NCBI RefSeq assembly: GCF_000176035.2
Contig: NC_015675.1
Coordinates: 6,452,001 to 6,516,000 of the forward strand
Reading direction: 5' to 3'
Origin: Mesorhizobium opportunistum WSM2075
GTDB lineage: Bacteria > Pseudomonadota > Alphaproteobacteria > Rhizobiales > Rhizobiaceae
DNA: 64,000 nucleotides
The notes below the pieces were generated by a model, which saw only the letters and a list, made by a program, of their open reading frames with translations, had not been told where the DNA came from and made no database searches. The translations under genes were made by a program, and so were the position numbers. Positions 8,750 through 43,378 of this stretch are shown one piece after another; position 1 is the first letter of the stretch, and every line of letters starts with the position of its first letter.

Positions 8750-8792
8750 CGTCAAATTCAGTTTGCGTATCGTTGCCATCTGGTTTTGAGAT
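8750..8792 (-). promoter_or_regulatory. Nod-box-like element 1
   Basis: Read toward the gene at 8646, the element is ATC-N9-GATG (repeat arms at 8778-8792), then N4, CGATAC, then CAAACTGAATTTGACG ending at 8750. The distance from the repeat to the TCAAAT block matches eight of the other nine sites. TTGACG at 8750-8755 could serve as a -35 box. The bases beyond the repeat (CTCAGAGCGG) are also shared with elements 3 and 7. Confidence 0.7.
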
Positions 8793-8829
8793 AACTCAGA
8801 GCGGTTTGGATTGTGGATATGAGGTATCC

Positions 8830-9055
8830 TGGGCCCTTTCCCCGGCTGAAGACCTCCGTGCTCGCCCGTCCTGCCATTGCCGCCAAAGGAAAGCGCCTGC
8901 CGAAAGGTCAGCCAGTTCTAGCCGAGTAACCGCGCTCGATGACCGCGGCACACAGGATCAGGATGTTGATGCCGGAATAGGTGCGGCTGGTGGCGGCGTT
9001 CTTCGGCAGGTCGAAGGCCGCCTTCGCCCTGCGGTTCAGCCGTGCCATTGATCAA
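8830..9055 (-). pseudogene. ArdC-like antirestriction protein remnant
   Basis: The minus strand encodes NAATSRTYSGINILILCAAV, then IERGYSARTG and, after a frameshift, NWLTFRQALSFGGNGRTGEH. This is the conserved N-terminal region of ArdC/DUF1738 antirestriction proteins ('YxGINxLxLW...WLTFxQAxxxGGxVRxGE'). Such genes travel on conjugative plasmids and integrative elements. The rest of the gene is missing. Confidence 0.6.
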
Positions 9056-9185
9056 GGAGGCCATCGCAAACGGTGAGCGCTTCTGGGCCCATGCCTTTGA
9101 ACACGCTTGCGCCACGAACGACATCGAGCCACCGACCAAGGAGCAGGCATCACGATGCACCTTCTTGGAGTTGTTGAGCGGCAAT
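9048..9185 (+). pseudogene. IS481-like transposase fragment
   Basis: The plus strand encodes PLIKEAIANGERFWAHAFEH followed by ACATNDIEP. The same segment (PLIKEAIANGEIFRAHAFEL, then ARARNDIEH) occurs in the IS481-like remnant at 26515-26990, so both derive from related elements. Only about 45 codons remain, wedged between ArdC and recombinase debris. Confidence 0.5.
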
Positions 9186-9189
9186 TAAT

Positions 9190-9911
9190 CTGGGCGGACG
9201 ACCACCATATCGACTGCCGGCGCCTTTTTCGAGTCTGACATTGGCCCGGCGGTTCAAGAGGTAATCGATGGTTGGTGGCATATCGATGGCGCTTGAGAAT
9301 GCCCTTTCGCCCGAGTTGGTGAAGGGTCGAGGCGCACACGCCGAGCTGCTGGGCTACGTCCTCGCCAGTCAGCATGCCGCTCTCCCGCAGCCGTTCCTAC
9401 CGGGTCTTCAATCCATAGGTGCGGCGCACGAGCATGACCCTTCTTCAGCGTGAAGAGTTCGCCGCGCCAGTTGCGATGCCCGAGTTCATTGAGACGGGCG
9501 GCGATCTGCTGGTCGTTGGCGGTCTCTAGCAGCTCGTTCAATATCGCCACGACTGTGCCGGCGTCTTGCGTATCACTGACATTGGCCGCGGTCTGGTCAC
9601 CGACAGGCTCGCATGCCCTCGCCGCGCCAGCGGCTATGGATGTTGACCTGCTCGTCGACGAGCAGCGTCACGTCTTCCATGAGAAGGCCGAGCATGCGCT
9701 TGCGTTCGACGGCACCGGTGCGCTCGTCATTCCAGATGCGTGGGAAATCGGCGGCCAGCGCCTTGATGCGCTCCTGCGCTGGCTCGTCCAGCAGCGAGCG
9801 GTCGGCCTCGTTCTGGCGCTCGTGCTCGCGCTGGAGCGCGTCCAGGTCACGCAGCCGTGCGTTCCAGTCGGCTTCCAGCGCGTCGGCGACCAGGTTGTCC
9901 GCATTGACCAT
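9190..9911 (-). pseudogene. Large serine recombinase remnant (C-terminal part)
   Basis: On the minus strand three frames give, in order, VADALEADWNARLRDLDALQ and IWNDERTGAVERKRMLGLLM (coiled-coil region), LETANDQQIAARLNELGHRN, and LTGEDVAQQLGVCASTLHQL followed by GRKGILKRHRY (a DNA-binding helix-turn-helix). This order is that of the C-terminal half of rhizobial large serine recombinases, after the zinc ribbon. Frameshifts lie near 9590 and 9400. The catalytic N-terminal domain is absent. Confidence 0.65.
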
Positions 9912-10275
9912 TCCGCAAGGCTTCTTGAAAAACCAAGTTCAATGTGTTGCTGCCCAATCTTGCGTTCAGGCTCAGTCCAGAAGCTGCCGGATTGGATCGG
10001 AGGGCAGGTGCAGGCCCTGAGCTTTTTTGGCGGGCGTCGTCAAGGCCCTGTGGCAAATGATTGCGCAGTCTCTGCATCGCACTTCTCAAAAGCTTCCTGA
10101 TCCACCGGCCAGACGCGACGTTCGACATCGCAAGGTCGACCAGCGAATCAGAATCGCCGGATCGATGCGCGATGCGCTCAAGCCGGGGCACCAGCATACC
10201 CTATTAAACCAACACGTAGTTCTTGATAGCTTTCGTGAAATAGCGTGCGTCCCAACGGTCACGGCGGAAGCGATG
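9912..10275. other. Unassigned interval
   Basis: A minus-strand frame here (about 9847-10197) stays open for 116 codons but shows no family I recognise, and its 3' part overlaps the recombinase remnant in another frame. I see no promoter, repeat or RNA gene. It probably consists of decayed mobile DNA. Confidence 0.3.
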
Positions 10276-11409
10276 TTAAAGGGTGCTCGCACTGCAGAAA
10301 AGGCTTTCGATAAGGACCTCTCTGCTGTCACCAATGTCGTCTCCATTGAAGTAGAGGATCGCGCCAGTCCCGTCCTTTTCACGGAAGCCCATAAACGTCC
10401 TGACACCAGGATCGCCGCCAGTGTGTCCCCAAATAACATCACCATTTTCAAGGATGAATTTGTGCCAGCAGAGGGGGCGACCATCGTGGACTTCAGAGAG
10501 CATCACGTCGATGGTTGACTCTTTCAGCAACAGATTTCCGCCTCGGTTTCCGTAGGTGGCGAGAAAGAGCGACAGTTCCTCAATGCTCGTGCGCGCTAGT
10601 CCCTCCATATAGGTGGGGTAACTGTAGAGGCAAAGCGCCACGCGGCCCTCCGGCGCAACCTCATCAATTGTCAAGCCAGGAACTGCAAATCGGGAGGAAA
10701 ATGCTTGCCCGCCTCCCTCCCACTTTTCTTTGGTACCCCTGCTATAGAGAACTGCATGCCGGTTAATATTAACATCGCGCACATACCAGCCAGTGCTGTT
10801 CATGCCCAAGGGGGTGAAGATGTGGTCGGCGCAATAATCGGTGAAGCGCGCGCCAGCTACGCACTCGACAAGGTGGCCGAGCAGGCCATAAGCAACATTG
10901 CAATACCCGCCGGGGTGATCCGGATCGAGTTTGCCGGGCGCCCACCCGTGGAAATTGTCGTTGGCGTCGAAATAGATCCCCCCTGGCGTTAGGTATGCCT
11001 CGAGCCAGTCCCCAAGAGCAACCGTCGGATCGCCGCAGGCGTAGCTGTCTGAGTAAGACTTCCCGTCCCGGATTGACGAGCGATGATTCAGGAGCCGCCG
11101 TGCTGTGATGGCCAGCGATGGGTGTTTCGGATTGACGACCTGATAGGGAAGATACCTACTGACATCCGCATCCAGGTCAATTAACCCGTGTTCCCAAAGC
11201 TGCATCACGGCTGTTGCCGTAATAGTCTTGGACACGGAGCCGATATTCATGATGGTTTTGGGCGTCATCGGAACGCTGCGTGTCACATCTGCCCATCCAT
11301 ACCCCTTCGCCCAAACAAGCCTGCCATCGTGCACGAGTCCAACTGCCGAACCTGGAATTGAAAATTCCTTGAGCTTGCCCTCGACGATCTTATCAATAGA
11401 TGATTGCAT
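10276..11409 (-). CDS. Serine hydrolase, class C beta-lactamase fold
   Basis: A 377-residue member of the serine beta-lactamase-like superfamily (class C, EstB, DD-peptidase and D-aminopeptidase relatives). The SxxK nucleophile motif is SVSK (S58, K61), the second motif is YCN in GGYCNVAYGLLGHL, and the KTG equivalent is HTG in WGHTGGDPGV. Members cleave beta-lactams, D-amino-acid peptides, esters or amides; specificity cannot be read here. No secretion signal is evident, so a cytosolic hydrolase is likely. ATG 11409 is chosen because GGGAG lies 8 bases upstream; ATG 11433 has a poorer site. A nod-box-like element lies 86 bp upstream, grouping it with the other hydrolases and importers of the regulon. 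Confidence 0.85.
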   Translation of the reverse strand: MQSSIDKIVEGKLKEFSIPGSAVGLVHDGRLVWAKGYGWADVTRSVPMTPKTIMNIGSVSKTITATAVMQLWEHGLIDLDADVSRYLPYQVVNPKHPSLAITARRLLNHRSSIRDGKSYSDSYACGDPTVALGDWLEAYLTPGGIYFDANDNFHGWAPGKLDPDHPGGYCNVAYGLLGHLVECVAGARFTDYCADHIFTPLGMNSTGWYVRDVNINRHAVLYSRGTKEKWEGGGQAFSSRFAVPGLTIDEVAPEGRVALCLYSYPTYMEGLARTSIEELSLFLATYGNRGGNLLLKESTIDVMLSEVHDGRPLCWHKFILENGDVIWGHTGGDPGVRTFMGFREKDGTGAILYFNGDDIGDSREVLIESLFCSASTL

Positions 11410-11494
11410 AGGTCTTACTCCCAAAGCGCTCATCTTCCCGTCTGCGATTCGGCTCTTTAATTGGTCAGTTGATTTTCAAATGCCGCGGGGTTCA

Positions 11495-11538
11495 CGTCAA
11501 ATTCAGTCTGTGTATTGCGGCCATCTGGTTTTCAGATG
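11495..11538 (-). promoter_or_regulatory. Nod-box-like element 2
   Basis: Plus-strand CATCTGGTTTTCAGATG (11522-11538) is a perfect 6-bp inverted repeat with a 5-base spacer. The CGTCAAATTCAGT block begins at 11495, at the standard spacing. Read toward the hydrolase at 11409 it is ATC-N9-GATG-N4-CAATAC, then ACTGAATTTGACG. Confidence 0.7.
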
Positions 11539-11559
11539 AAACTCAGATTGCCGGAGGGC

Positions 11560-12613: not shown

Positions 12614-12628
12614 CAGGCGGCTCCAATG

Positions 12629-16345: not shown

Positions 16346-16412
16346 ACTATGATCCGGCGCGGCGATCGACGTCAAATTCAGTTTGCGGATCGGCACTATC
16401 TCGTTTTGAGAT
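16346..16412 (-). promoter_or_regulatory. Nod-box-like element 3 with putative promoter
   Basis: The repeat ATCTCGTTTTGAGAT occupies 16398-16412. The CGTCAAATTCAG block is at 16370-16381, at the standard spacing. Toward the gene at 16203 it reads ATC-N9-GATA-N4-CGATCC, then CAAACTGAATTTGACG. TTGACG (16370-16375) and CATAGT (16346-16351) are 18 bases apart and would make a sigma-70-like promoter. The sequence from about 16333 to 16470 is nearly repeated at element 7. Confidence 0.72.
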
Positions 16413-19208: not shown

Positions 19209-19336
19209 TAGATCACCTCAAGTGCTCACTGGTTGTCTAAAAGGCGCCCATCGGCTAACCGGAGCACGCAGACAATGCGCACGCGCGGATACCATCCGTC
19301 GTCCTATCGTGAGGATTGCTTGCACCGTCGGCATGG

Positions 19337-19379
19337 GTCAAATGCATTTTCCATATCGTAGTCATCTGGCCACGCGATG
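19337..19379 (-). promoter_or_regulatory. Nod-box-like element 4 (diverged)
   Basis: Toward the M24 gene it reads ATC-N9-GATG (19364-19379 region), N4, CGATAT, then AAAATGCATTTGACC. The repeat arms are reduced to ATC/GAT, but the 25-base distance from TCAAAT to CATCT is the same as in the better copies. Confidence 0.5.
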
Positions 19380-21470: not shown

Positions 21471-21515
21471 CATCTCAGACTCAGATGGCCACAATCGACA
21501 AACTGAATTTGACGG
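21471..21515 (+). promoter_or_regulatory. Nod-box-like element 5
   Basis: CATCTCAGACTCAGATG (21471-21487), then GCCA, CAATCG, then CAAACTGAATTTGACGG ending at 21515, reading toward the gene at 21699. This copy fits the nod-box layout ATC-N9-GATG-N4-YNATC exactly. TTGACG could be the -35 box. Confidence 0.72.
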
Positions 21516-21698
21516 CAGCCACTCAGCGGTTTTGACTGACAAGGCGCTAATCGTTTCTGATGCACCAGCGCCATGCATATCTAGTCAACAGGAACGCCTG
21601 CCCGAAATGCAGGCATGAATGTAGTCATTGAGAGTACGCGCAGACACGACCTTGCTTCGCTAACGGGCCAAGAACGGCAAAAAAGATGGGAGAGACGG

Positions 21699-22535
21699 AT
21701 GAATCGGCTTATAACGATGATTGCAGCTGCAGCCTCACTCGCAGTTGCGTCCGGCGGTAGCCCGTCCAGGGCCAACGCCGGCGAAGTTCTGGATCGCGTG
21801 CTCGCCACAAAGACGCTGACGGTGGCGGTGGGGCCGGATTGGGGACCCCTGTCCCATTTGAACGACAAACATGAGCTCGATGGTTCCGATATCGACCTTG
21901 CCAAGGCCATCGCGAAATCCCTTGGCGTGGAGGTAAAGTTCGTAACGACGAACTGGGATATGATAGCGGCAGGCAAGTGGCAGGGCCGTTGGGATATGGG
22001 CATGGGTCAAATGACGCCTACGAAGGAACGTGCCAAACTATTTGAGTTCGTCACTTACAGTTACATTCCAGAGGTAGCCATCGTACACAAGGATAGTAAG
22101 GCGACGAAACTTTCCGACCTCGACGGCAAGGTTATCGGTGTCGGATCGGGCGACGTGGCAGAGTCCTATGCCAAACATAACTTTACGCCCGGATGGGTCA
22201 CCGCTAAACCAGTAAAGTACCAATTTACACCTGGCGAGCTGAAGATTTACCAAACGGACAGCCTTTTGTACGACGACCTTCGCCTGGGAGATGGAGTACG
22301 GCTTGATGCGGTGCTTAACTCTGATAACGGGGCTAGAAATGCGATAAAGGCCGGGTATCCAATTAAGATCCTTGACGAGCCGTTGTTCTCGGGGCCGGCT
22401 GCTATTTCCATTCTCCATGGCGACAAGGAATTCCTCGACAGGGTTGCGGCTGCCGTGAAAACGATGAGGGATGATGGCACCCTCGCCAAGCAGTCCATGA
22501 AATGGTTCGGCGCGGACTACAGCGTCGACAGATAA
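21699..22535 (+). CDS. Amino-acid ABC transporter substrate-binding protein, family 3
   Basis: A 278-residue periplasmic binding protein of family 3 (polar amino acids and derivatives). The N-terminal MNRLITMIAAAASLAVASGG is a signal peptide, with cleavage probable near ANAGEV. The mature protein has LTVAVGPDWGPLSHLN, then LDGSDIDLAKAIAKSLGVEV, WDMGMGQMTPTKERAKLFEF and LDGKVIGVGSGDVAESYA, all typical of the family. ATG 21699 is chosen over 21615 because it is preceded by GGGAGAGACGG and starts the signal peptide directly. A perfect 10-bp hairpin follows the stop, and permease and ATPase genes follow in the same direction. Nod-box-like element 5 lies about 185 bp upstream, so the transporter is a predicted regulon member. 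Confidence 0.9.
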   Translation: MNRLITMIAAAASLAVASGGSPSRANAGEVLDRVLATKTLTVAVGPDWGPLSHLNDKHELDGSDIDLAKAIAKSLGVEVKFVTTNWDMIAAGKWQGRWDMGMGQMTPTKERAKLFEFVTYSYIPEVAIVHKDSKATKLSDLDGKVIGVGSGDVAESYAKHNFTPGWVTAKPVKYQFTPGELKIYQTDSLLYDDLRLGDGVRLDAVLNSDNGARNAIKAGYPIKILDEPLFSGPAAISILHGDKEFLDRVAAAVKTMRDDGTLAKQSMKWFGADYSVDR

Positions 22536-22546
22536 TTGCAAAGCAT

Positions 22547-22574
22547 AGCGGCCCCGCTGTCGGGGCCGCTCTTT
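22547..22574 (+). terminator. Intercistronic hairpin, terminator or attenuator
   Basis: AGCGGCCCCG (22547-22556) pairs perfectly with CGGGGCCGCT (22561-22570) across a 4-base CTGT loop, followed by CTTT. The short T-run suggests partial termination. Placed between the binding-protein and permease genes, it would favour high expression of the binding protein, a common arrangement. Confidence 0.75.
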
Positions 22575-22587
22575 GAAAGCGCTGCTC

Positions 22588-23562
22588 ATGCTTTATCAGG
22601 ACAACGTCGAGTCCGAGGTCCTCGTCCACAAGCCGTGGTTCGTTGCTTCAATTTTTGCCGTAGTGCTCGCGGTTTTTCTTATGTTCAATCTTACGGGCAC
22701 CACCTTTGGCGAGCTCATGCGGCCTGTCATCGGCGACCCGGCGCAAAGTGGGATCTATGGTCGCTTCGCGATCGCGTTTGTGATAGCGATCATATTCTGT
22801 CTCAACATCGTTTTGATCGGTTTTGTTTCGCTGAAGGTGCAAATCGGTGTTGTCTGGGCCGAGCTACTGGTTCTGTTTCTTGCCTTCTTCAAGTCATTTA
22901 ACCTGAGCATGCCCTTCATCTGGGAGAATTTACCATATCTGATCACGCAGGGAGCGGTTACGACGATCTATATCTCGGCGGTTTCACTGATATTCGCTTC
23001 GATCATCGCGATGATTGCCGCGATTGCAAAGCTTTCAAGCAATGGCTTCGCCTATGCAATCGCCAGTTTCTACACATCATTTTTCCGTGGCCTGCCGCTG
23101 CTGGTCCAGATTTACCTGATTTACCTCGGACTGCCGCAACTTGGTATCTTTATCAACGCCGTTCCTTCAGGCGTCTTGGCGCTGTCGCTTTGCACCGGAG
23201 CCTACATGACAGAAATTTTCCGTGCCGGTATCCAGAGCATCGACCGCGGCCAATGGGAAGCTTCGCGATCCATGGGTTTCGGCTTCGGTCTTACGATGCG
23301 TAGGATCATACTGCCGCAGGCGCTTCCGGTCATCATTCCCCCAATGGGAAACACGTTCATCTCAATGCTGAAGGACAGCTCACTCGTCTCCATCCTCGGT
23401 GTGTGGGAGCTCACGTTCCTTGCTCGCACACTCGGCCAGCCGACTTTTCAACACATGGAGATGCTCATAACGGCCGCAATTATATATTGGATTATGTCCA
23501 TCTGCCTGGAACTGGTCCAGTCCAGGATCGAGCGCCACTTTGCTAGAAGCAAGGTGCGGTGA
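22588..23562 (+). CDS. Amino-acid ABC transporter permease
   Basis: A 324-residue permease of the HisM/GlnP family. About 110 residues with three hydrophobic spans precede the usual permease domain, which starts near [20 protein letters not shown]. This extension makes it longer than typical members (about 220 residues). The EAA loop is [19 protein letters not shown] followed by [13 protein letters not shown]. It is the only permease between the binding-protein and ATPase genes, so it probably acts as a homodimer. ATG 22588 is chosen; a TTG at 22573 lies within the hairpin tail and is less likely. Confidence 0.9.
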
Positions 23563-23692
23563 TGGTCGTCAGCATAGGCAAGGTCACGTGAAGCACGCTC
23601 CAAAATTGTACGGCCCATCTAAGACGACTGTCGAGATAAGCTCCCCCGGGTCAAGTTCGGATCGGGGTTATCGGGCGGCCAGAGGAGTGGCA

Positions 23693-24433
23693 GTGAGTGA
23701 TACAGTTATCGAAGCTAAGAACGTCTCGAAGTGGTACGGCACCTTCAGAGCATTGACTGACGTCAATCTCACGGTCCGCAAGGGCGAACGCATCGTTATC
23801 TGCGGCCCCTCCGGATCGGGAAAGTCGACGCTAATCCGCTGCTTTAATCGGCTCGAGGCGCACCAAGAGGGCGAGATCACTGTCAATGGGATCCGGTTGC
23901 ATAACAAAATGCGCGACCTGGCTGAGGTTCGTACGAACGTCGGCATGGTGTTCCAGCACTTCAATCTCTTCCCGCATATGACGGTGCTGATGAACTGCAT
24001 GGCAGCGCCGATGTGGATTAAGGGTATGTCAGAGGCCGAGGCAAAGAAGATCGCGCTAAAATTCCTCGAGCGCGTACGCATACCCGAGCAGGCGAACAAA
24101 TTCCCTGGTCAACTCTCCGGAGGACAACAGCAGCGCGTCGCAATTGCCCGCTCGCTCTGCATGGAGCCTGCGGTCATGCTTTTCGACGAGCCGACCTCGT
24201 CTCTCGATCCGGAGATGGTCGCTGAGGTGCTCGAGACCATGACCAGTCTCGCGCGCGAGGGCATGACGATGGTCTGCGTCACCCACGAGATGGGTTTCGC
24301 GCGCTCCGTCGCCGATCGCGTCATCTTCATGGATGCAGGCCGGATCGTCGAGGAAGGCAAGCCGCACGACTTCTTCACCAAGCCTCAGCACGAAAGAACA
24401 AAGCTCTTCCTCCATCAAATCTTGTCGCACTGA
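23693..24433 (+). CDS. Amino-acid ABC transporter ATPase (GlnQ/HisP-like)
   Basis: A 246-residue ATP-binding subunit of the polar amino-acid transporter family. It has Walker [11 protein letters not shown]-loop [10 protein letters not shown], signature LSGGQQQR, Walker [15 protein letters not shown] and H-loop [12 protein letters not shown] 23693 is the start, preceded by AGAGGAG at good spacing; the open frame upstream to 23540 overlaps the permease and has no domain. It completes the importer that begins at 21699. It is closely similar in motifs to the second ATPase at 50089-50832. Confidence 0.92.
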
Positions 24434-24559: not shown

Positions 24560-24602
24560 CATCTGAGTTTTAGATGAATCACATCGCCCAAACAGTATTT
24601 GA
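24560..24602 (+). promoter_or_regulatory. Nod-box-like element 6
   Basis: CATCTGAGTTTTAGATG (24560-24576), then AATC, ACATCG, then CAAACAGTATTTGAAC, reading toward the MFS gene at 24844. The spacing to the TCAAAT block is one base longer than in the other nine. It lies about 240 bp before the gene. Confidence 0.6.
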
Positions 24603-24843
24603 ACACACCTAGCTCAAACGTCGTGGCTTCCGCCTAGAGTGAGATTCAAATTGCAGCGCCGTTGGAAAAACGACGGTGGATCGCGCTCGATGGTAGTACT
24701 GCCTGCGTTCATCGTTATGGGTGTGAGGCCGCTACCCTTGTGGGTTAGTGGGCGCGCGAGCGCGTGGCAGCTTGGCTTTAAGGGCGTGGCATATTTGGGT
24801 GCTTGTGAATTCGCGCCAGCAGTCGATCCCGAAAGCTTCCACA

Positions 24844-26514
24844 ATGGCAAAGAGAACATCTCCACTCGTGCCGTTTCAACACAAGAGGTTCCGTTCTCTG
24901 TGGTCGGCTGCATTTGTTTCGAACCTTGGCACCCTAGTCGAGGGCGTGGCTGCTGCATGGCTGATGACGAGCATTGCCACGTCGCCTGGTATGGTGGCGC
25001 TCGTCCAGTCATCGACTACGCTGCCGTACATGATCTTTTCGCTCGCAGCGGGAGCGCTCGCAGATAACTCTGATCGCCGCCGGATTATGTTGACGGCTCA
25101 ACTGCTGATGGTGTGCGTTTCCGCGTCTTTGGCGTTTTTGGCCTATACCCAGGCACTCACACCCTGGACTCTGTTGAGTCTCACGTTCCTGATCGGCTGT
25201 GGTTGGGCGTTGCACGACCCATCGTGGCAAGCTTCGATGGGAGATATCCTCCCTCGCGAGCACCTATCAAGCGCAGTTGCACTTAACGGCATGAGCTACA
25301 ATCTCATGCGCAGCATCGGACCGGCCATTGGTGGGCTCATTGTAGCGGCAGCCGGTGCGGCCTTTGCGTTTCTTTTCAAATTCTTTTGCTACTTCGCCCT
25401 GATCATCGCGCTCTTGCGATGGAAAACTGTACGTGCGCGACAGCCGCTTCCGCGTGAGGCTTTCGGTAGTGCGATGGGCGCCGGCTTCCGCTATGTGCTG
25501 CTGTCGCCGAACCTTCTCAAGGTGATGTGTCGGAGTTTCGTTTTCGGTCTCACCGCCATCGTCATTCTGGCTCTGCTGCCGCTCATTGCCCGAGAACAGG
25601 TGAAGGGTACTGCCATAATCTACGGCGTGATGCTCGGCTTCTTTGGCCTGGGTGCCATTTGCGGCGCGCTTCTTATCACACGGAGCCGCGAAGTTCTCAC
25701 CAACGAGTGGGTCATTCGTGGCGCATTCTTTGTGCTGGCGATCATCTGCTTCTTTCTGGCATCGTGCGAACACGTTTGGTTGAGCTGCCTTCTCCTCATG
25801 CCGGCTGGTGCGGCCTGGCTGCAGGCATTCTCGCTGTCCAACGTGACGGTTCAGCTTTCGGCGCCACGGTGGGTGGTTGGACGAGCTCTCTCCCTCTACC
25901 AGACGGCTACATATGGCGGCATGGCGGCGGGCAGCTGGATCTGGGGTGAATTGGCGGACATCCAGGGTGTTTCCGGGGCTTTGTTCGTTGCTAGCCTCGT
26001 TCTTGTCTTCGGGGGGCTGATCGGCATTCTTCTTCACCAACCGGATTTCGAAACACTCAATCTCGACCCGACCAATAAGTTCAGCGAACCGGCGCTGCAA
26101 CTTGACCTGCGATCGCGCAGCGGACCGATCATGGCGATGGTTGATTATCGCATCGATCAGAAAGAAGTTCCAGAATTCCTCATCGTGATGACATCGTGGC
26201 GAAAAGCCCGACTCCGAGACGGTGCCAGGCAGTGGTCGCTGCTGCGCGACTTAGAAAAGCCCGGACTGTGGACCGAGTGTTACCACGTACCAACATGGGT
26301 CGAACATTTGCGACACAACCAGAGGCAGACCCATGCCGACGCTGAAATCGCAGCGCGCCTGGACGCACTGCACCAAGGCGATTGCCCGCCCAAATCCATC
26401 AAGATCGAACGGCAGACGTGCGGGTACACGACGACATGCCGCTTAAGCCCCACTTGGACAGGTCTTGAGCGAAAGGCCGGAAGCGGCGTCCCAAGTTCAA
26501 CTTGCCAAGCCTAG
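24844..26514 (+). CDS. MFS exporter with C-terminal cytosolic domain (MFS_3 type)
   Basis: A 556-residue major-facilitator protein of the EntS-like MFS_3 family. It begins KRFRSLWSAAFVSNLGTLVE followed by GVAAAWLMTSIA, and has about twelve hydrophobic spans. The loop motif LADNSDRRRIML follows the second span. After the last span (about residue 415) comes a soluble domain (MVDYRIDQKEVPEFLIVMTS, WRKARLRDGARQWSLLRDLE, WVEHLRHNQRQTHADAEI) that resembles the dimeric alpha/beta-barrel domain often fused to this family. Members export siderophores, drugs or metabolites. ATG 24844 starts the conserved N-terminus; ATG 24748 is possible. The last 20 residues may be altered, since transposase debris begins at 26515. 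It is the only exporter in the predicted regulon. Confidence 0.85.
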   Translation: MAKRTSPLVPFQHKRFRSLWSAAFVSNLGTLVEGVAAAWLMTSIATSPGMVALVQSSTTLPYMIFSLAAGALADNSDRRRIMLTAQLLMVCVSASLAFLAYTQALTPWTLLSLTFLIGCGWALHDPSWQASMGDILPREHLSSAVALNGMSYNLMRSIGPAIGGLIVAAAGAAFAFLFKFFCYFALIIALLRWKTVRARQPLPREAFGSAMGAGFRYVLLSPNLLKVMCRSFVFGLTAIVILALLPLIAREQVKGTAIIYGVMLGFFGLGAICGALLITRSREVLTNEWVIRGAFFVLAIICFFLASCEHVWLSCLLLMPAGAAWLQAFSLSNVTVQLSAPRWVVGRALSLYQTATYGGMAAGSWIWGELADIQGVSGALFVASLVLVFGGLIGILLHQPDFETLNLDPTNKFSEPALQLDLRSRSGPIMAMVDYRIDQKEVPEFLIVMTSWRKARLRDGARQWSLLRDLEKPGLWTECYHVPTWVEHLRHNQRQTHADAEIAARLDALHQGDCPPKSIKIERQTCGYTTTCRLSPTWTGLERKAGSGVPSSTCQA

Positions 26515-26990
26515 GTGTTTAGTCCCGGCATTTGCTGGAGCGGATTGAGGGTGAAGCGCTCGGGCTGGGAAGCCCATGCCTTGCAGATGAACTCGTAGGG
26601 GGTGAGACCTTTGAGGTCTTGAGCCTGCGACCGAAGTTGTAGGCTGTGACGAACTCGGCAAGGTGCCGACGCAGTTGGTCGTGATCGTCGTAGTGGAAAC
26701 GCTTGACCGTAGCGTCCTTGATGGTGCGGTTCATGCGCCCGACCTGGCCGTTGGTCCAAGGATGCTTTGGCTTTGTGGTTCGATGTTCGATATCGTTCCT
26801 GGCGCGGGCGAGTTCGAAGGCATGAGCCCGGAATATCTCGCCATTTGCGATCGCTTCCTTGATCAGTGGAACGGCCGAACCGCCAGCTCCTGGCGTGGTG
26901 AACTCGCTGCCATAGCACCTACCGAAGGAATGATGAGAGGCAACCGAGACATCGGTGCGCGCAGCTTTTTCGCTGCAGGCGCGCACCGAT
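26515..26990 (-). pseudogene. IS481-family transposase C-terminal remnant
   Basis: The minus strand encodes AVPLIKEAIANGEIFRAHAF, ELARARNDIEHRTTKPKHPW and TNGQVGRMNRTIKDATVKRF, then DQLRRHLAEFVTAYNFGRRL. After a frameshift it ends TPYEFICKAWASQPERFTLN and PLQQMPGLNT. This is the C-terminal half of an IS481 transposase, including the last Glu region. The earlier catalytic Asp residues are missing. Confidence 0.75.
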
Positions 26991-27062
26991 CGAGGTGGCC
27001 ATGGCCAGTCGAAGGATCTCTTGAATGTGAATGTTCACAACCCATTCCGGAGAGACCGACCA

Positions 27063-27555
27063 CGACCAGCCCAAATGTTATACCCGCCGATGCGGTGTTG
27101 GTAGCGATCGATATCGCCAAGGTCCGCAATGAAGTCCTGATTGAAGCCTCCGGCCACAAGCGCCGCAGCCGGCTGCCGGTTCTCAACACCCGCGCAGAGC
27201 ATGACCGGCTGATCGAGATTCTGCAGGCGTATTGCCAACCGGTGGTCTGCGGCTTCGAAGCGACGGGCAATTATCATCGCCCTATCGCATGGCGTTTGGC
27301 TGAGGCAGGCTTCGAGGTGCGGCTGGTGTCGTCACTGGCGCTCGCCCGAACCCGGGAGGCCTTGCACAACAGTTGGGACAAGAACGATCCCCAGGATGCG
27401 CAGGTGATCCTGCACATGCTCAGGATCCAGGCGACGCAGCGCTATCACGATCCGCTGCGCGCCGGAATAAACAACGTACAGGAACTGTCGAAGACGCATG
27501 AGGCGATCGCCAGAGCCAAGACCGAGATCCAGCACCGCATCCGGGATCTTGTGAT
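27063..27555 (+). pseudogene. IS110-family transposase N-terminal remnant
   Basis: It begins VLVAIDIAKVRNEVLIEASG, continues LIEILQAYCQPVVCGFEATG and NYHRPIAWRLAEAGFEVRLV, then SWDKNDPQDAQVILHMLRIQ and QRYHDPLRAGINNVQELSK. These are the DEDD domain motifs of an IS110 transposase (I-D-I-A-K, E-A-T-G-N-Y, KNDPxDA). The frame leaves the family at about 27555, where an oppositely oriented recombinase remnant starts. The C-terminal half is gone. Confidence 0.75.
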
Positions 27556-27559
27556 GCGA

Positions 27560-28245
27560 TCTGTGTGCGGTGACCCGCTCCCGTGTCCAGCGATTGCCAT
27601 GCCCGGTCACCAAGCCGTTGCGGTTGAGAATGCTGGCGATCAGATCATCGCTGGCGATCAGCACCAGTTGCCGGATGGCTGCGATGATATCGGTGGAGGT
27701 GCTGCTGCGCTGTCCGCGCCGGCGCTTCGGCAGGCGCAGCTCGGTATGGGTGCCGCCAATCCAATGGATCAGCAGCACGATCTCGGAGGCATGATCGTCG
27801 AAATTGGCGACCACCTTCTGAATGACCGTGCGCACGATGCGCTTCTTGAGCCTGGCGTCCGTCGTTGGCGCCGACCAGACAGCCTGAAGGTCTGTGGCCA
27901 GCGCCGTGATGCCGTTGCCAACACAGGTGATGGCCTTGGCGTCGCGGCATCATGCGCGGCGATCTTGCTCTCGATCTCACCGACACGGATGAGTGCCTGG
28001 TTCCAACTCGCGCCGCAACCGTACCGACCTTGCCGAGGCAGACCTCGGCGACCCTCCGGTCGAAGCCGGCACGCGCGACGCCGCCGGCGGCAGAACGGGC
28101 CGAGATCGTCGTCGATCGTCTCTACGCGAGAGCAGCCAAGCGCCGTCAGGCGATCGCGGGTCGCATACTGAAGCATGCTGCTCTCAGGATTGTGCAGGAC
28201 CTGATGGGCTGACGACTGCACATACAGGATCGCTTTACGCTCCAA
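27560..28245 (-). pseudogene. Large serine recombinase remnant with internal deletion
   Basis: The minus strand starts RKAILYVQSSAHQVLHNPES, then SMLQYATRDRLTALGCSRVE and TIDDDLG, the N-terminal resolvase-like domain of a large serine recombinase. In other frames it continues LIRVGEIESKIAAHD, KKRIVRTVIQKVVANFDDHA, HTELRLPKRRRGQRSSTSTD and LNRNGLVTGHGNRWTRERVT, which are C-terminal parts. Most of the catalytic and zinc-ribbon region is deleted. A related remnant lies at 9190-9911. Confidence 0.65.
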
Positions 28246-29726: not shown

Positions 29727-29913
29727 TCTCCCTGCTAATCATTCTGCGGCAGCAACTGAGACCCATGGCTCGATAGTTACCTCTATTTTTATGTGAGATG
29801 CCGGGGCTAAAACTTGCGGACAGTGACTATTTATCCGCTATCCTCACGCGCCGAAAGTAACGGAGCCGACAAGCTGATAAACTTTGTAGATGCCGCCAAG
29901 AACATGCTTTCGA

Positions 29914-29980
29914 ACTATGACCCGTCGCGGCGATCGACGTCAAATTCAGTTTGCGGATCGACGCTATCTCGTTTTGAGAT
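29914..29980 (-). promoter_or_regulatory. Nod-box-like element 7 with putative promoter
   Basis: The repeat ATCTCGTTTTGAGAT is at 29966-29980 and the CGTCAAATTCAG block at 29938-29949. TTGACG (29938-29943) and CATAGT (29914-29919) are 18 bases apart, as at element 3. It reads toward the DUF2817 gene at 29726. The flanks on both sides match element 3 over more than 100 bases. Confidence 0.72.
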
Positions 29981-30079
29981 AACCTCAGAGCGGCCGTGAC
30001 TTCGCGGTCCCTGCGTCCGCCTGCACAGACCGGTGCTTCTGCTGGGGGTTGAGCGGCGCGAAAAGAGCAGTTAGGCCTC

Positions 30080-31371: not shown

Positions 31372-31415
31372 CATCTAAGTTCTAGATGACTGCGATAATG
31401 ATAATATTCTTGCCA
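31372..31415 (+). promoter_or_regulatory. Nod-box-like element 8
   Basis: CATCTAAGTTCTAGATG (31372-31388), then ACTG, CGATAA, then a block ending TCTTGCCAAC. It reads toward the hydrolase at 31590. The 25-base spacing is exact, although the distal block is diverged. The element overlaps an upstream in-frame ATG at 31386, which supports the later start. Confidence 0.55.
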
Positions 31416-31589
31416 ACTCTTGGCCGACGGGACATGCCCTCTACCGGAACTTGGCCCTGCCCGTCATTCTACCGCAAGCATGGCGGAGTAGGGCCGGTCG
31501 CCTGTCTTGCTTTACCCTGGTCGATCGCGGGCCTGGATCTGGAGGTGCGTGTAACCGCGCATGAACTCGCCATACCGAGGAGGGACAGG

Positions 31590-33572
31590 ATGGTCCAAAA
31601 TGCACCATACCGGCTCCGTCAGCGCTTGACGGCGACCGCTGCGGCTATCGCCAGGTCCGCAAGCGCGGTCTTAGCCACCCCTACGGGCACGGCCGCCCAA
31701 ACCCCTACGAGTGAGGCTGCCCAAACCCCTACGAGTGAGGCTGCCCAAACGGGCACTGGATGGTCGAAAACGCCCACGAATGAGGCTGCCGAAATTGGCA
31801 CTGGATGGTTGAACCGGAGCGGGCAGACAGACCAGCCAGTGCCCCTTCCGAAGCCGCGTTACGAAGTAGATGTCGAGAAGGACGTCCGCATACCGATGCA
31901 TGACGGCGTCGGTCACTATGCCGACATCTATCGTCCACGCGGGGTGGCTGGCCCGCTGCCGACAATCATGATCCGGACGCAATACAATAAGGCGGGCTAT
32001 CTTCAGCCCAGTCCGTTCAGCCACCGCAGCGTGGCAGTCAGGATGTTTGCCGGCCAGGGCTTCGCGGTCGTTGTGCAGGACCTTCGCGGGCGCTTCCGTT
32101 CCGAGGGTACCTTCCATTTAGCTGAAAGCGATGCCATGGACGGCTACGACACGGTCGCCTGGATCGCTTCGCAGTCCTGGTCCAACGGCCGGGTCGGCGG
32201 TTACGGCTGCTCTGCTCTCGGCATCACTCAGGTGATGACGTCGCAACGGCGGCCGCCAGCGCTGAAGGCTGTCGTGCCGCAGGGAGCCGCTGGCGCACTG
32301 CGGTCGATGCCATGGGATGAACTGGTTTCCGGTGTTCACGATATGGGCTGCACACTGCAGTGGTTTCGCGAGTCGGCCAACCAGCGCCAAGAAGTGCTCA
32401 AGAAAGTTGATTATTGGGAGTTGCTGAAGACCCTCCCTGTTGCCGACTTGGGCGACCGGGCCGGCGGCCCGCCCAATGACTGGCGGGATTGGCACTCGCG
32501 TGAACTCGGCGGTCCTTGGTGGGGCAAGTTCGGCCTTTTCGATGAGTTCTCGCACCCCGATGTTCCGGCCCTGTTCGTCGATTCTTGGTATGACGGTACG
32601 GTTGGAGGCACGCTGGAATTGTTCGACAGGTTCCAGAAGCAGTCGTTGTCAGAGGAAGCGCGGCGGAATCAGTATGTGATCATCTCTCCCACCGGTCATT
32701 GCGAAAGCGAACAGGCCCCACCCTACATCGTGGGCCAGCGTGATGTCGGGGACAATCGGCTGGATTGGTGGTCGATCTATTTGCGCTGGTTCAATCATTG
32801 GCTGCGCGACGGTCAGGGCGGCTTCGACATGCCGCACGTCCAATACTTTTTGATTGGAGCGAACCAGTGGAAGTCATCCGACAGCTGGCCGCTGCCGGGA
32901 ACACGCTTTGTGCCCTATTATTTGAGCAGCGGCGGTCATGCGAACACGAGCAAGGGTGACGGCCGGCTATCCACGGCGGCTGCGTCGGGCCCGCCTGACC
33001 GTTATCACTATGATCCTGCCGATCCCGTTATCAGCCCTGAGCCCTTCAGAGTCCCCCCGGGTCCGGGCTGCCCTGCCGAGCTTGAGTCCGCCAGCGTGTC
33101 AGTGGACCAGCGCCAGACGGATCTGCGAGACGACCGGTTGGTGTTCACCACGGAGCCGCTTCGTTCAGGCATCGAGGTGACCGGTCCGCTGCGCGCCGTG
33201 CTCTATGTGTCATCCTCGGCGGTGGACACCGACTTCGTTGTGCAACTGAGTGACGTCTATCCCGATGGGCGGGTCTACAATCTCAGGACCGGTATCGCGC
33301 GGGCGCGCTACCGTGAAGGCTACAAGCCGTCTAAATTGATGATCCCAGGCCAAATCTATCCCATAGAGGTGAATCTGCATGCGACCGGCAATTACTTCGC
33401 GCCTGGCCACCGCATCCGCGTGCAAGTGTCGAGCAGCAGCTTCCCGCATTTCGGCCGAAACCTGAATACAGGCGGTAACAATTTGACGGAAACCAGGTGG
33501 GTCGTGGCAGAGAACACTATCTACCACGATCGCGACCATCCCTCGCAAATCATCCTTCCAATCGTGCCGTGA
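31590..33572 (+). CDS. CocE/NonD-family acyl hydrolase (X-Pro dipeptidyl-peptidase-like)
   Basis: A 660-residue alpha/beta hydrolase of the CocE/NonD family (cocaine esterase, glutaryl acylase, alpha-amino-acid ester hydrolase, X-Pro dipeptidyl-peptidase). The catalytic triad candidates are S208 in VGGYGCSALGITQ, D331 or D335 in DSWYDG, and H370 in SPTGHCESE. The domain begins DVRIPMHDGVGHYADIYRPR, and a C-terminal jelly-roll (LRSGIEVTGPLRAVLYVSS) follows. Residues 1-80 are not family-like and contain short Thr/Pro/Ala-rich repeats (AQTPTSEA twice). The start is ATG 31590 with GAGGAGG upstream; an in-frame ATG at 31386 lies inside the nod-box-like element. The enzyme would cleave an ester or amide of an acylated compound. 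No clear signal peptide is seen. Confidence 0.88.
   Translation: MVQNAPYRLRQRLTATAAAIARSASAVLATPTGTAAQTPTSEAAQTPTSEAAQTGTGWSKTPTNEAAEIGTGWLNRSGQTDQPVPLPKPRYEVDVEKDVRIPMHDGVGHYADIYRPRGVAGPLPTIMIRTQYNKAGYLQPSPFSHRSVAVRMFAGQGFAVVVQDLRGRFRSEGTFHLAESDAMDGYDTVAWIASQSWSNGRVGGYGCSALGITQVMTSQRRPPALKAVVPQGAAGALRSMPWDELVSGVHDMGCTLQWFRESANQRQEVLKKVDYWELLKTLPVADLGDRAGGPPNDWRDWHSRELGGPWWGKFGLFDEFSHPDVPALFVDSWYDGTVGGTLELFDRFQKQSLSEEARRNQYVIISPTGHCESEQAPPYIVGQRDVGDNRLDWWSIYLRWFNHWLRDGQGGFDMPHVQYFLIGANQWKSSDSWPLPGTRFVPYYLSSGGHANTSKGDGRLSTAAASGPPDRYHYDPADPVISPEPFRVPPGPGCPAELESASVSVDQRQTDLRDDRLVFTTEPLRSGIEVTGPLRAVLYVSSSAVDTDFVVQLSDVYPDGRVYNLRTGIARARYREGYKPSKLMIPGQIYPIEVNLHATGNYFAPGHRIRVQVSSSSFPHFGRNLNTGGNNLTETRWVVAENTIYHDRDHPSQIILPIVP
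31695..31742 (+). repeat. Tandem 24-bp repeat inside the CocE-like gene
   Basis: Two exact copies of a 24-bp unit (31695-31718 and 31719-31742) encode AQTPTSEA twice. A third degenerate copy (KTPTNEAAEIGTGW) follows at about 31770. Being a multiple of three, the unit can expand or contract without breaking the frame. Confidence 0.8.
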
Positions 33573-35915: not shown

Positions 35916-36094
35916 TGCAGCTATCCTTTCTCCTCTGCCTCGTGTCAGCGAGAGAGGGCCGTGGCACGCACAGCGCGGTTTGAATTTTCAATTAGTACTA
36001 AATCCAACTGGAAAACAGCGGTCGTTTTCCAATGGTAGTGGAGTGCAAATCTCAATTTGGACGACACCCACAATCGATCTCGCGCCAGGCCGCA

Positions 36095-36136
36095 GTCAAA
36101 TACAGTTTTGCGATTCGATTCATCTGAAATTCAGAT
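36095..36136 (-). promoter_or_regulatory. Nod-box-like element 9
   Basis: The repeat ATCTGAAATTCAGAT (36122-36136) is a perfect palindrome of 7-bp arms around one base. The TCAAATACAG block starts at 36096 at the standard spacing. Toward the amidase at 35915 it reads ATC-N9-GATG-N4-GAATCG, then AAACTGTATTTGACT. Confidence 0.68.
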
Positions 36137-36960: not shown

Positions 36961-36965
36961 TGCCA

Positions 36966-37200: not shown

Positions 37201-37254
37201 CGGCATCGATCTGCCAGAGTGAGGTCGTTAAAGATCTCAAGCAAAGGAGGCCGT

Positions 37255-37428: not shown

Positions 37429-37439
37429 TTCGCCGTTTC

Positions 37440-40425: not shown

Positions 40426-41375
40426 TACTCAGCCCCGAGACGGATTCGGGGATTGAGCAGCGCATAAAGCAGATCTGCAACCATAGTCGCTACCACTAAG
40501 GCGATGCCAGTCACTAGCACCCCCGCCTGCAGCATCGGGAAGTCCTTGCTCTGCGCGGCAGAGAAAATAAGCAATCCAACTCCTTGGTAGCCGAATAGTT
40601 TCTCCGTCACCAACAGGCCGCCAATCAGAAAAGCAGTCTGAGTCGCAATAACTGTGATCGTCGGCAAGAGCGCATTCCGCAGCACATGCCTCCAGATGAC
40701 CTTCCGCCAGGGCAGGCCTTTTAGAACGGCAGTGCGGGTGTAGTCGGAATCAAGCGCATCGAGCGTTCCTGCACGGGCCATCCGTGCGATATAGGCGAAA
40801 AGCCCCAGCACCAACGGCATCGCCGGCAGAATAAGATAATAAAGTTGTGTCAGCGGCCCTGCACCATCCGGCCAGGCGGCGGAAACCGGCAGCCAACGCA
40901 GCCAAACGCCGAAAATCAGGATCAGCACGATTCCAGTGACGAATTCCGGGAGCACAGTTACCGAGAGACCGCCAAGGGTAATGATGCGATCAACTGGACG
41001 GTTCACGTTTAGCGCTGCCACTATCCCGCCGAGAATACTGAGTGGCACGACGACAGCGAATGCCACCGCGGCTAGCTTCAACGACTGGCCCAGTGCCGCT
41101 TTCACAACGAGGGCTACCGGGCTACGATAGACAAGGGACTCTCCCATGTCGCCGTGCAGGAAGCGCCCTAGCCAAGAGCCGTACTGGACGAGTAACGGCC
41201 TGTCCACACCGAGCCGGTGGTTCAGCGCATCCACCGCTTGTTGATCGGCGAAGGGGCCAAGAATGGCCCGCCCCACGTTGCCCGGCAGTACCTGCCCGCC
41301 GAAAAACACGAGCAGGCTCAGCACGAAGAGTGTAATTATTGCATAGGTAAAGCGCCGGGCAAGGAAACGTTTCAT
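40425..41375 (-). CDS. Peptide-type ABC transporter permease (DppB-like)
   Basis: A 316-residue inner-membrane permease starting MKRFLARRFTYAIITLFVLS. It has the region LNHRLGVDRPLLVQYGSWLG after the first span, and the EAA loop YTRTAVLKGLPWRKVIWRHV. It lies 68 bp after the binding-protein gene and is coupled to the DppC-like gene. The ligand specificity is set by the binding protein and is not known. Confidence 0.92.
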   Translation of the reverse strand: MKRFLARRFTYAIITLFVLSLLVFFGGQVLPGNVGRAILGPFADQQAVDALNHRLGVDRPLLVQYGSWLGRFLHGDMGESLVYRSPVALVVKAALGQSLKLAAVAFAVVVPLSILGGIVAALNVNRPVDRIITLGGLSVTVLPEFVTGIVLILIFGVWLRWLPVSAAWPDGAGPLTQLYYLILPAMPLVLGLFAYIARMARAGTLDALDSDYTRTAVLKGLPWRKVIWRHVLRNALLPTITVIATQTAFLIGGLLVTEKLFGYQGVGLLIFSAAQSKDFPMLQAGVLVTGIALVVATMVADLLYALLNPRIRLGAE

Positions 41376-41443
41376 CGGGGTCCGCTTCTTAAATGATGTA
41401 CCTGTACGGCGAGGCAGCTAATGCTGCCCTCGCCGAGCCAACG

Positions 41444-43108
41444 TTATGTCTTTCCCGCATCCTGTAAGAACAATTGCCCGATGGCTGTTGGCTGGACGCC
41501 AACGACGCCCTTCTTGGTCGCGATCAGGTAGTCATAGAAGTAGCCGAACAGCAGCGGCGTTTCTTCAAGCAGTAGCCGCTGAATCTTGCCTGCACCCGCC
41601 CGCTGCGCCTCCAAATCGAGCGAGGCCGTGTAGCTGTTGACGAGGTTGTCATATTCCTTGTTCTTGAACTTGGCCGGATTATAAATGCCGTCGCTCATCA
41701 ATAGCGATTGGAGGAGAACGTTCGGTACGCCGCGGTGGCCGAAGTCGCCAATGCCCATCACCGAGTCGAGCCACGGCGATTTGCCGGGGATCACATCGCC
41801 ATAAAAGGCACTCCGGTCCATGATGTCGAGCTTGAGCTCGACGCCGATCTCCTTCACCCAGTTCTGTAAGAGCTGGGCATAGGCCGGAATTTCCAGATAT
41901 TGCGGGGCGGCAAGCGTCACCTGAAAGCCCTTCTCCATCCCCGCCGCCTTCATCAACTCTTTGGCCTTGCGGATGTCCTGGTTGCGCTGCGGCACGGTCG
42001 GATCGGTCATGGGATAGACTTTGGCGAAGGGGCTATCGTTGCCGACTTCGGCGCGGCCTTTCATCAGGCCCTTTACGAACTTCTCGCGATCCAAACACAG
42101 CGCCACCGCCTGACGGACACGTGGATCCCCGAATGGATCCGAGTCACAGTGCATGTGGACTGGCTGGTTCGCAGTGGATTTTAAGCTAACGATGTCAACG
42201 CTCGGGTCGCCTAGCAGTGCCACACCGTCGAGCACGGAGAACTGGTTGACGATGTCGACCTGCCCGGCCTGCAGCGCAAAGATTTGCGCCCGGATATCCT
42301 TGAAGAAGATGAATTCTGTTTTCGCCGGCAGCGCCTTTAGTCCCCAATAATCATCATTGCGGACGAAACTCGCGCCGACGTTGCGAGTGAACTTCTCGAT
42401 CTTGAAAGGACCAGTGGCGTCCCAACTTTCCTCGAAATTTCCCGAATAGCCCGCCGGCAAGATAATAGCATTGTAGTTGTCGGACGACACCAAGTAAGGG
42501 AAACTGCCGCTCGCGCTGTCGAGATGGAACTCGACTGTGTAGTCGTCCACCTTTCGGGTGCCGCCCTTTTGCAAAATGCCCTTGAAGACGGAAAGCGCGT
42601 TTGACGAATTCTTTGGATCCGCCAGTCGATCCATAGTGGCGACGACATCATCGGCCTTCATCTCGCCGCCAGAATGGAACTTAACGCCTTTTTGTAGCGT
42701 GAACGTCCAAACGGTGCCGTCCTGGTTAGGGTTCCAGCTTGTCGCAAGACAGGGCTTCAGCACAAGGTCTGGCCCGTCGATGCAGAGGAACTCACCGACC
42801 TGATTGAGCATCAGGACCCCCCCCGTGTCGCCATTCAGGACGGGGTCGACCACGGTCTGCGGCGCATCGCAAGCAACTCGAATGGTGGAACCGGGTTGGA
42901 CGGCCGCTCTCGCTACGGACGGTGTTGCGCCGAGGCCAACCACCAGCGTAGCCTGGCCAAGAAACGGCAGGGACAGGCCAAGCACACTGCCGTGCCGCAA
43001 AAACTCGCGACGACTGACGCGGCCATCGACGTGGCCATCGATCAGGTGGTTCTCGATCGGCGTTAGGCCAGAGCGAAGACCATCGAGCAAGTAAGTGTTT
43101 CGTGTCAC
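41444..43108 (-). CDS. ABC transporter substrate-binding protein, family 5, with Tat-like signal
   Basis: A 554-residue periplasmic binding protein of the dipeptide/oligopeptide family. An unusually long n-region precedes a twin-arginine motif in SRREFLRHGSVLGLSLPFLG, followed by a hydrophobic stretch and a likely cleavage after VARAAV. Family segments are WTFTLQKGVKFHSGGEMKAD and VRQAVALCLDREKFVKGLMK. The start is GTG 43108, with AGGGGA 7 bases upstream; a TTG at 43129 lies before that site. It heads the operon 43108-37560 (binding protein, two permeases, fused ATPase). Nod-box-like element 10 lies about 230 bp upstream. Confidence 0.9.
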   Translation of the reverse strand: MTRNTYLLDGLRSGLTPIENHLIDGHVDGRVSRREFLRHGSVLGLSLPFLGQATLVVGLGATPSVARAAVQPGSTIRVACDAPQTVVDPVLNGDTGGVLMLNQVGEFLCIDGPDLVLKPCLATSWNPNQDGTVWTFTLQKGVKFHSGGEMKADDVVATMDRLADPKNSSNALSVFKGILQKGGTRKVDDYTVEFHLDSASGSFPYLVSSDNYNAIILPAGYSGNFEESWDATGPFKIEKFTRNVGASFVRNDDYWGLKALPAKTEFIFFKDIRAQIFALQAGQVDIVNQFSVLDGVALLGDPSVDIVSLKSTANQPVHMHCDSDPFGDPRVRQAVALCLDREKFVKGLMKGRAEVGNDSPFAKVYPMTDPTVPQRNQDIRKAKELMKAAGMEKGFQVTLAAPQYLEIPAYAQLLQNWVKEIGVELKLDIMDRSAFYGDVIPGKSPWLDSVMGIGDFGHRGVPNVLLQSLLMSDGIYNPAKFKNKEYDNLVNSYTASLDLEAQRAGAGKIQRLLLEETPLLFGYFYDYLIATKKGVVGVQPTAIGQLFLQDAGKT

Positions 43109-43336
43109 AGCGGTTCCCCTTTTTCTCAACGTTGATCGTGCACCTGCGTTTACGCCCGGTTCCGATGTCGTCGGGAACCCACTGAGCGATTCCTATGGAC
43201 TTCCGTCCCGACGCCGTTTTCCGCGTCTACTAGCCTTAGCTTCCTGCGGCGAGTGCCACCTTGACGAGGTCACAAGTGGCCCAAGCTTGAACGAGGCTTC
43301 TTCATTTTTTGATGATCAATTGCGCGGCGGCTCGGA

Positions 43337-43378
43337 GCAAATACAGTTATTTTATGCTCATCATCTGGGAACGAGATG
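43337..43378 (-). promoter_or_regulatory. Nod-box-like element 10 (diverged)
   Basis: The repeat CATCTGGGAACGAGATG is at 43362-43378 and GCAAATACAG starts at 43337, with the standard 25-base spacing. Toward the gene at 43108 it reads ATC-N9-GATG-N4-GCATAA, then AACTGTATTTGC. The first base of the TTGA block is lost. Confidence 0.55.

Follow-up and report, generated by a model that had tools for sequence, protein, structure and literature searches.

The 64,000-nucleotide stretch of Mesorhizobium DNA analysed here (the window; C1:5826290-5890289 in a single-contig genome of 6,200,534 bases) carries two oligopeptide ATP-binding cassette (ABC) operons, an amino-acid ABC transporter, a major facilitator superfamily (MFS) exporter and hydrolases of the beta-lactamase, AstE/AspA, M24, DUF2817, S15 and amidase families, all preceded by copies of a shared upstream element. 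Judged by sequence, these elements most likely mark an amide/peptide catabolic regulon with LysR-activated promoters. The original prediction described an ATC-N9-GAT inverted repeat at ten places, with constant spacing to a gene-proximal block save for one exception, and this description was confirmed: the repeat is present at all ten, nine sites share one ungapped register (TTG core at +37) and 24561 has one additional base, and the repeat forms the gene-distal end in every case whichever the strand. The coordinates first given for the sites were mostly of two kinds, those on the plus strand denoting the palindrome and those on the minus strand the gene-proximal (-35) end.

The sites, their downstream genes and promoter anatomy

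In the common register ATC-N9-GAT occupies positions 0-14, AT positions 22-23 and AAACTG-NATTTGAC positions 28-41. Leave-one-out matrix scores, with the extra base of 24561 removed by hand (this site scores 14.0 without the removal), range from 19.8 to 55.2 bits, and the highest score in 20 Markov-shuffled windows is 12.8. The weakest site, 31373, combines a good palindrome with a poor second block (TTCTTGCC), and was recovered at E 0.43 by a genome-wide model built from the other nine, although left out of its training. Counted at E<=10, that model has eleven matches in the genome, namely the ten in the window and C1:5921273, upstream of an S15-family hydrolase and 31 kb past the right-hand end of the window.

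Site 1 (8750..8792, minus strand), with its palindrome at 8778-8792, second block at 8755-8770 and a -35-like TTGACG at 8750-8755, precedes an oligopeptide ABC operon (8646-3175). Site 2 (11495..11537, minus; palindrome 11523-11537, TTGACG 11495-11500) stands before a beta-lactamase-family serine hydrolase (11433-10276), site 3 (16370..16412, minus; palindrome 16398-16412 of the form ATCTC-N5-GAGAT, TTGACG 16370-16375) before an AstE/AspA-family deacylase (16203-15205), and site 4 (19336..19378, minus; palindrome 19364-19378, TTGACC 19336-19341) before an M24 creatinase-family gene (19208-18048). Amino-acid ABC transporter genes (21615-24433) follow site 5 (21472..21514, plus; palindrome 21472-21486, TTGACG 21509-21514), and an MFS_3 exporter (24748-26514) follows site 6, the one with the extra base (24561..24604, plus; palindrome 24561-24575, TTGAAC 24599-24604). 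Site 7 (29938..29980, minus; palindrome 29966-29980, TTGACG 29938-29943), a near-copy of site 3 including its flanks, precedes a DUF2817 gene (29726-28620). The weakest element, site 8 (31373..31415, plus; palindrome 31373-31387, second block degenerate), lies before the S15 peptidase open reading frame (ORF) 31386-33572, the start of which is likely at ATG 31590, just after GGAGGG. Site 9 (36094..36136, minus; palindrome 36122-36136, TTGACT 36094-36099) precedes an amidase (35915-34485) and site 10 (43335..43377, minus; palindrome 43363-43377, TTGCTC 43335-43340) the second oligopeptide ABC operon (43129-37560). Sites 3 and 7 are alike well past the core (window:16330-16430 and 29900-30000), including a GCGGCCGTGACTT stretch, which suggests a duplicated promoter segment before unrelated hydrolase genes. 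IS110-family transposase genes are found inside the regulon region at window:13753-14913 and 26663-28171. Rfam at its gathering threshold gave zero matches within the window.

Placement was assessed with 60 sites, eleven of them from this genome and 49 from elsewhere in the genus (13 other genomes, 20 stretches). An ORF of at least 200 aa starts within 450 bp in the predicted direction at 51 of the 60, and in the reverse direction at 4/60 (14% for random positions). By its own terms, the original prediction would have been refuted by a motif equally frequent in genes or at random; only three of the 60 sites fall inside an ORF of at least 250 aa, against 66% of random positions, and the claim that the sites define a dispersed, intergenic set of hydrolase and transport genes is borne out. 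The downstream proteins of the other genomes (39 of 44 scanned) include oligopeptide-type binding proteins (8), creatinase N-terminal domains (7), M24 domains (6), SBP_bac_8 (4) and M20 (3), with class-III aminotransferase, beta-lactamase family, AstE/AspA and Pyr_redox_2 at two each and further families represented singly. One downstream protein in these genomes is off-theme, an Xre-type antitoxin, and its site lies inside an ORF.

Promoter anatomy was examined in the 58 of the 60 sites that fit the ATC-N9-GAT pattern, drawn from 14 genomes. TTTGAC begins at +36 in 54 of them, at +35 in three and at +37 in one, and 17 bp past TTGACG the commonest base is A at the second -10 position (33/58) and T at the last (39/58), a modest signal. 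The arrangement reads as a -35/-10 promoter in which TTTGAC would be the -35 element, the -10 is weak and the palindrome is centred near -66. LysR-type sites follow a T-N11-A rule, and the LysR regulatory site usually lies near -66. By that rule, the elements have the makings of a LysR-activated promoter, with a palindromic T-N11-A site and an activation block abutting the -35.

Some of the sites might be passive copies, left when promoter segments were duplicated along with an operon or a mobile element, with few of them still functional. The likeness of sites 3 and 7 in flanks as well as core, the IS110 genes in the window and an orphan site in another genome (G139, below) are in keeping with such an origin; we consider it very improbable, given that nine of the ten window sites score well, that cores are kept where flanks differ (58 sites, 14 genomes) and that 51 of 60 sites are correctly placed.

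Relation to NodD and canonical nod boxes

The original prediction favoured NodD or a NodD-like protein as controller of these genes, with another LysR-type activator as the fallback. The nod box has been described as holding ATC-N9-GAT within 47 bp (PMC5596368), a layout shared overall by the present sites. ATC-N9-GAT followed by a second half 22 bp on fits LysR-type sites generally and is thus not unique to NodD, so that the palindrome alone is no proof of a NodD target.

Four canonical nod boxes occur in the 252 kb of this genome scanned for them, 45-103 kb right of the window end, and two NodD-type genes of 83% mutual identity adjoin two of the four (the names nodD, nod and nif rest on inspection by eye of the gene order and the translated sequences). 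When the whole genome was searched by pattern, allowing up to 3 mismatches, one of the four was found. Scored against an extended nod-box consensus (maximum 41), the canonical boxes reach 33-36, and six of the ten window sites appear in the top 40 at 24-27, three of them at 26-27, with the best unrelated places at 25. The fit of the sites is scarcely above background, and the predicted departure of their arms from classic nod boxes is upheld. On the motif matrix the nod boxes score -1 to -18, compared with 44-64 for nine of the eleven sites of this genome, 24 for 31373 and -4 for 24561 with its indel. The comparison with same-strain nod boxes that had been proposed as a check sets the sites apart from these boxes. 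Measured as nod boxes, the elements have the ATC-N9-GAT of the 47-bp element; they do not match the extended consensus and their occurrence does not closely follow that of NodD.

The latter point derives from a survey of 145 genomes of the genus, including the present one (motif at E<=0.01 with strict filters, LysR at E<=1e-80), in which all co-occurrence counts and Fisher p values come from related genomes that are not independent events and are uncorrected for kinship. The motif is present in 75 genomes, NodD in 100 and both in 74; at the threshold used, 26 of the 100 NodD genomes lack the motif. One genome, G101, has the motif and the LysR introduced below and no NodD at E<=1e-100, the cut-off applied to it, which indicates that the regulon can occur where the genes for nodulation control are absent. 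Two further NodD-like LysR genes (33% and 30% identity) lie distant from the island in the genome of the window, and the second NodD-type gene (L021:7735-8730) has one in-frame TGA in its aligned stretch, as it does in many other genomes of the genus. Family models did not assign the name NodD to these genes, the nearest NCBIfam models being BsrA and LeuO, and the annotated plasmid records listed term NodD relatives 'LysR family'.

NodD1 or NodD2 binding the sites as divergent nod boxes of separate specificity would account for the overall layout resembling the published ATC-N9-GAT within 47 bp (PMC5596368), for the presence of two NodD-type genes and the sites in the same island region, and for NodD in 74 of 75 motif genomes. 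We give this little credence because G101 has sites without NodD and 26/100 NodD genomes have none at the threshold used, because the canonical nod boxes of the same strain have another consensus and negative scores on the motif matrix (-1 to -18), and because the palindrome is kept in the promoter of another LysR. Control by NodD is thus unsupported, in that the canonical boxes misfit the motif and NodD does not closely co-vary with it; the evidence favours the fallback, another LysR that does.

A NAC-related LysR as candidate regulator

That protein, a NAC-related LysR, is 24% identical to NodD1, and the LysR gene (C1:5812589-5813515) lies 13 kb to the left of the window. The best NCBIfam match of the protein, spanning residues 1-296, is to NAC, at 167.7 bits where the cut-off is 309, and the GltC model gives 115.6 bits against 350; membership of the NAC or GltC equivalog was rejected on these scores. 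Among the surveyed genomes 77 carry the LysR, 73 of them together with the motif, while four (G005, G014, G053 and G088) have the LysR only and two (G042 and G139) the motif only, so that co-occurrence with the motif has a Fisher p of 2e-33 for the LysR versus 2e-17 for NodD. Of the NodD-bearing genomes, 72 of the 74 that have the motif and 4 of the 26 that lack it carry the LysR. G101 (L067-L069) has at least six sites, and its site region holds a LysR 83% identical to that left of the window; G101 also has a LysR paralogue at 59%. In M. neociceri (L129, L142) a single contig bears two LysR copies separated by about 14 kb, with 88% and 82% identity to the query. As for genomes that depart from the pattern or fit it weakly, G042 has a single marginal match inside an ORF, which is probably spurious, the LysR alignments of G005 and G088 are partial with no site at E<=10, and G014 has weak sites at its own LysR locus.

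The LysR locus encodes a methylaspartate ammonia-lyase (671 bits, cut-off 286), a class III coenzyme A (CoA)-transferase, a citrate-lyase-type enzyme, an aldehyde dehydrogenase and a fumarase-type hydratase. Its promoters were compared in 64 of the 77 loci, those with a LysR at least 68% identical or fragments of such, the remaining 13 being at 30-35%. ATC-N9-GAT lies in the LysR's own promoter in 58 of the 64 (about 8% expected from shuffles of ten), in the perfect form ATCTCGTTTCGAGAT in 16, and in 52 distinct upstream regions the palindrome has a mean identity of 0.91 versus 0.59 for the rest; the regulator gene thus carries the palindromic part of the site, and that part only, in its own promoter. 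Downstream of the LysR gene, in 57/64 loci, the aldehyde-dehydrogenase operon has a site before it that keeps TTTGA in register, and the palindrome is found upstream of the ammonia-lyase gene in 22 of the 29 loci where that gene was found. For a blind ranking, a matrix was built from 51 sites that have no relative of the LysR, aldehyde-dehydrogenase, hydratase, ammonia-lyase, CoA-transferase, lyase or Lrp genes within 1.5 kb downstream (E<=1e-8). Over 251,701 bases on both strands (~503,000 placements), it places the promoters of the two flanking operons at ranks 11 and 12, directly behind ten of this genome's eleven training sites, with the eleventh, the indel-bearing 24561, below them. Genome-wide, the blind model returns the eleven sites and three weak matches (E 0.3-4.3), the aldehyde-dehydrogenase promoter being among these three.

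We therefore regard it as highly probable that the sites are activator-type promoters of this one non-NodD LysR. The assignment rests on the sites, their register, placement and conservation, the co-occurrence, the palindrome in the regulator's own promoter and the blind ranking of the flanking promoters, and from these we infer the binding, activation, ligand and pathway role of the LysR.

Several observations weigh against this assignment. The perfection of ATC and GAT in the promoter-anatomy set was partly selected by the search pattern (two of 60 sites misfit). The LysR's own promoter has no second block, so that 158 places score better on the full matrix and 24 on its palindrome part only, and seven of the 29 ammonia-lyase upstream regions lack a palindrome at that place. 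In G139 a single strong site stands before a complete Opp operon, yet no LysR was found at E<=1e-80 (the site adjoins an ORF that is IS110-like by eye), and G053, with a full LysR 84% identical, has only marginal matches (E about 0.2 or worse), one of them beside the LysR, and is poorly explained. In Sinorhizobium meliloti LMB1, discussed below, the LysR-promoter palindrome is degenerate. Finally, a neighbouring Lrp gene is present in 71 of the 75 motif genomes, almost as good a record as that of the LysR; co-occurrence alone hence does not name the LysR, and the promoter tests matter. The co-occurrence control was this Lrp neighbour only; the window also has AraC and RpiR genes. With a close Lrp orthologue in 71/75 motif genomes, the true binder could be the Lrp/AsnC protein encoded next to the LysR or some other regulator of the island, which is most unlikely considering that G013 and G133 have the motif and the LysR without a close Lrp, that the T-N11-A palindrome is LysR-like by the rule given above, and that it is located in the LysR promoter.

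The candidate LysR is also found beyond the genus, with orthologues 55-79% identical on eight plasmid records of Microvirga, Sinorhizobium and Rhizobium. Five of these were examined, and show the palindrome in the LysR promoter in four and motif matches in all five. Rhizobium leguminosarum Norway, S. meliloti M270 and Rhizobium sp. 32-5/1 have a single locus with Opp genes, M20, a second ABC transporter, M24, DUF2817, an amidohydrolase, the LysR, an Lrp and an aspartase (split lyase-family genes in M270), so that each of these three Rhizobium-type loci gathers much of the set dispersed in Mesorhizobium. LMB1 has a Mesorhizobium-like ammonia-lyase locus with M24 and binding-protein genes. On all four of these annotated plasmids the motif stands before M20 or binding-protein genes (E 5e-12 to 0.011), the LMB1 match overlapping the start of a short annotated hypothetical gene, and an unannotated Microvirga plasmid has two matches (E 2e-6 and 9e-6) before ORFs resembling, by eye, a PotD-type binding protein and a class-III aminotransferase. 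The plasmid of Microvirga sp. VF16 (L200, L201; Methylobacteriaceae) carries a LysR at 79% together with DNA 81% identical to the MFS gene of the window, which points to transfer between families. A CapA gene occurs in the R. leguminosarum LysR cluster, and a PGA_cap (CapA) gene lies at window:862-2966, left of the first operon. An order-wide scan at E<=1e-4 with stricter filters, which weak sites may escape, found the motif in 4 of 397 genomes, all of the same genus, although plasmids of other genera do hold sites.

Proposed mechanism and comparison with known systems

In the mechanism that we propose, a LysR multimer would sit on the ATC-N9-GAT palindrome, the midpoint of which is near -66 and 30 bp before the -35 hexamer, and with its ligand would engage the AT(A/C)-N3-AAACTG block running into the -35 hexamer TTGACG, RNA polymerase being recruited by the ligand-bound form. 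The LysR would control its own gene via the bare palindrome, the two flanking mesaconate-pathway operons (aldehyde dehydrogenase and fumarase-type hydratase; methylaspartate ammonia-lyase, CoA-transferase and citrate-lyase-type enzyme) and the dispersed importers and amide/peptide hydrolases of the window. Its ligand may be a five-carbon compound of the pathway, e.g. 3-methylaspartate or mesaconate.

The enzymes of the LysR locus plausibly form a route from 3-methylaspartate via mesaconate and citramalate to two- and three-carbon units; an annotated aspartase replaces the ammonia-lyase in two of the three Rhizobium-type loci. Combined with the importers, the many amide hydrolases suggest catabolism of amide-linked amino compounds. 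We tentatively speculate, with the odds rather against it, that a second island LysR regulon imports and dismantles amide-linked (ectoine- or peptide-like) compounds of host or bacteroid, their shared core being set free as 3-methylaspartate (in the Rhizobium version, as aspartate) and then degraded via mesaconate and citramalyl-CoA. If true, this would mean an undiscovered symbiosis-linked nutrient together with its sensor, and a second LysR regulon beside the nod regulon, with more sites here than canonical nod boxes found.

The analysis thus predicts a regulator, an operator and 13 target promoters (the eleven sites and the two flanking operons) on a symbiosis island of a well-known kind. 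One such island, according to the published account, is the 455.7-kb symbiosis island of M. australicum WSM2073T, derived from M. ciceri bv. biserrulae WSM1271 (PMC4062642). The predicted catabolic programme would be set apart from NodD control, and which nitrogen compounds rhizobia obtain from their host becomes a testable question. None of the titles and abstracts among the top-ranked literature entries names this regulon or regulator.

Among known systems, NAC is the closest family model for the candidate LysR, which belongs to neither the NAC nor the GltC equivalog; an amino-nitrogen regulon is in keeping with the NAC / GltC / CynR group. A literature search for a GltC operator similar to ATCTC-N5-GAGAT yielded no source. 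The ectoine catabolic module, which we take to consist of DoeA/EutD, DoeB/EutE, an aminotransferase, a semialdehyde dehydrogenase and the Lrp-type DoeX, is approached in that DoeA and DoeB are the best NCBIfam matches of the M24 and AstE/AspA genes and that aldehyde-dehydrogenase and Lrp genes lie at the LysR locus, with an aminotransferase next to it in Mesorhizobium sp. 131-3-5. It differs in that the LysR locus has methylaspartate ammonia-lyase and CoA enzymes in Mesorhizobium and aspartase in Rhizobium. Ectoine catabolism proper was rejected, DoeA scoring 150-159 against cut-offs of 575-613 and DoeB 198 against 403. With the nod box and NodD regulon the present system shares the ATC-N9-GAT palindrome, a second half 22 bp on, a promoter-proximal AT-rich block and residence on a symbiosis island; unlike that regulon, its sites have ATCTC/GAGAT arms and a CAAACTGNATTTGACG block in place of the AAACAATCRATTTTACC of the nod-box consensus, its downstream genes are catabolic rather than nod genes, and the motif tracks a LysR only 24% identical to NodD1.

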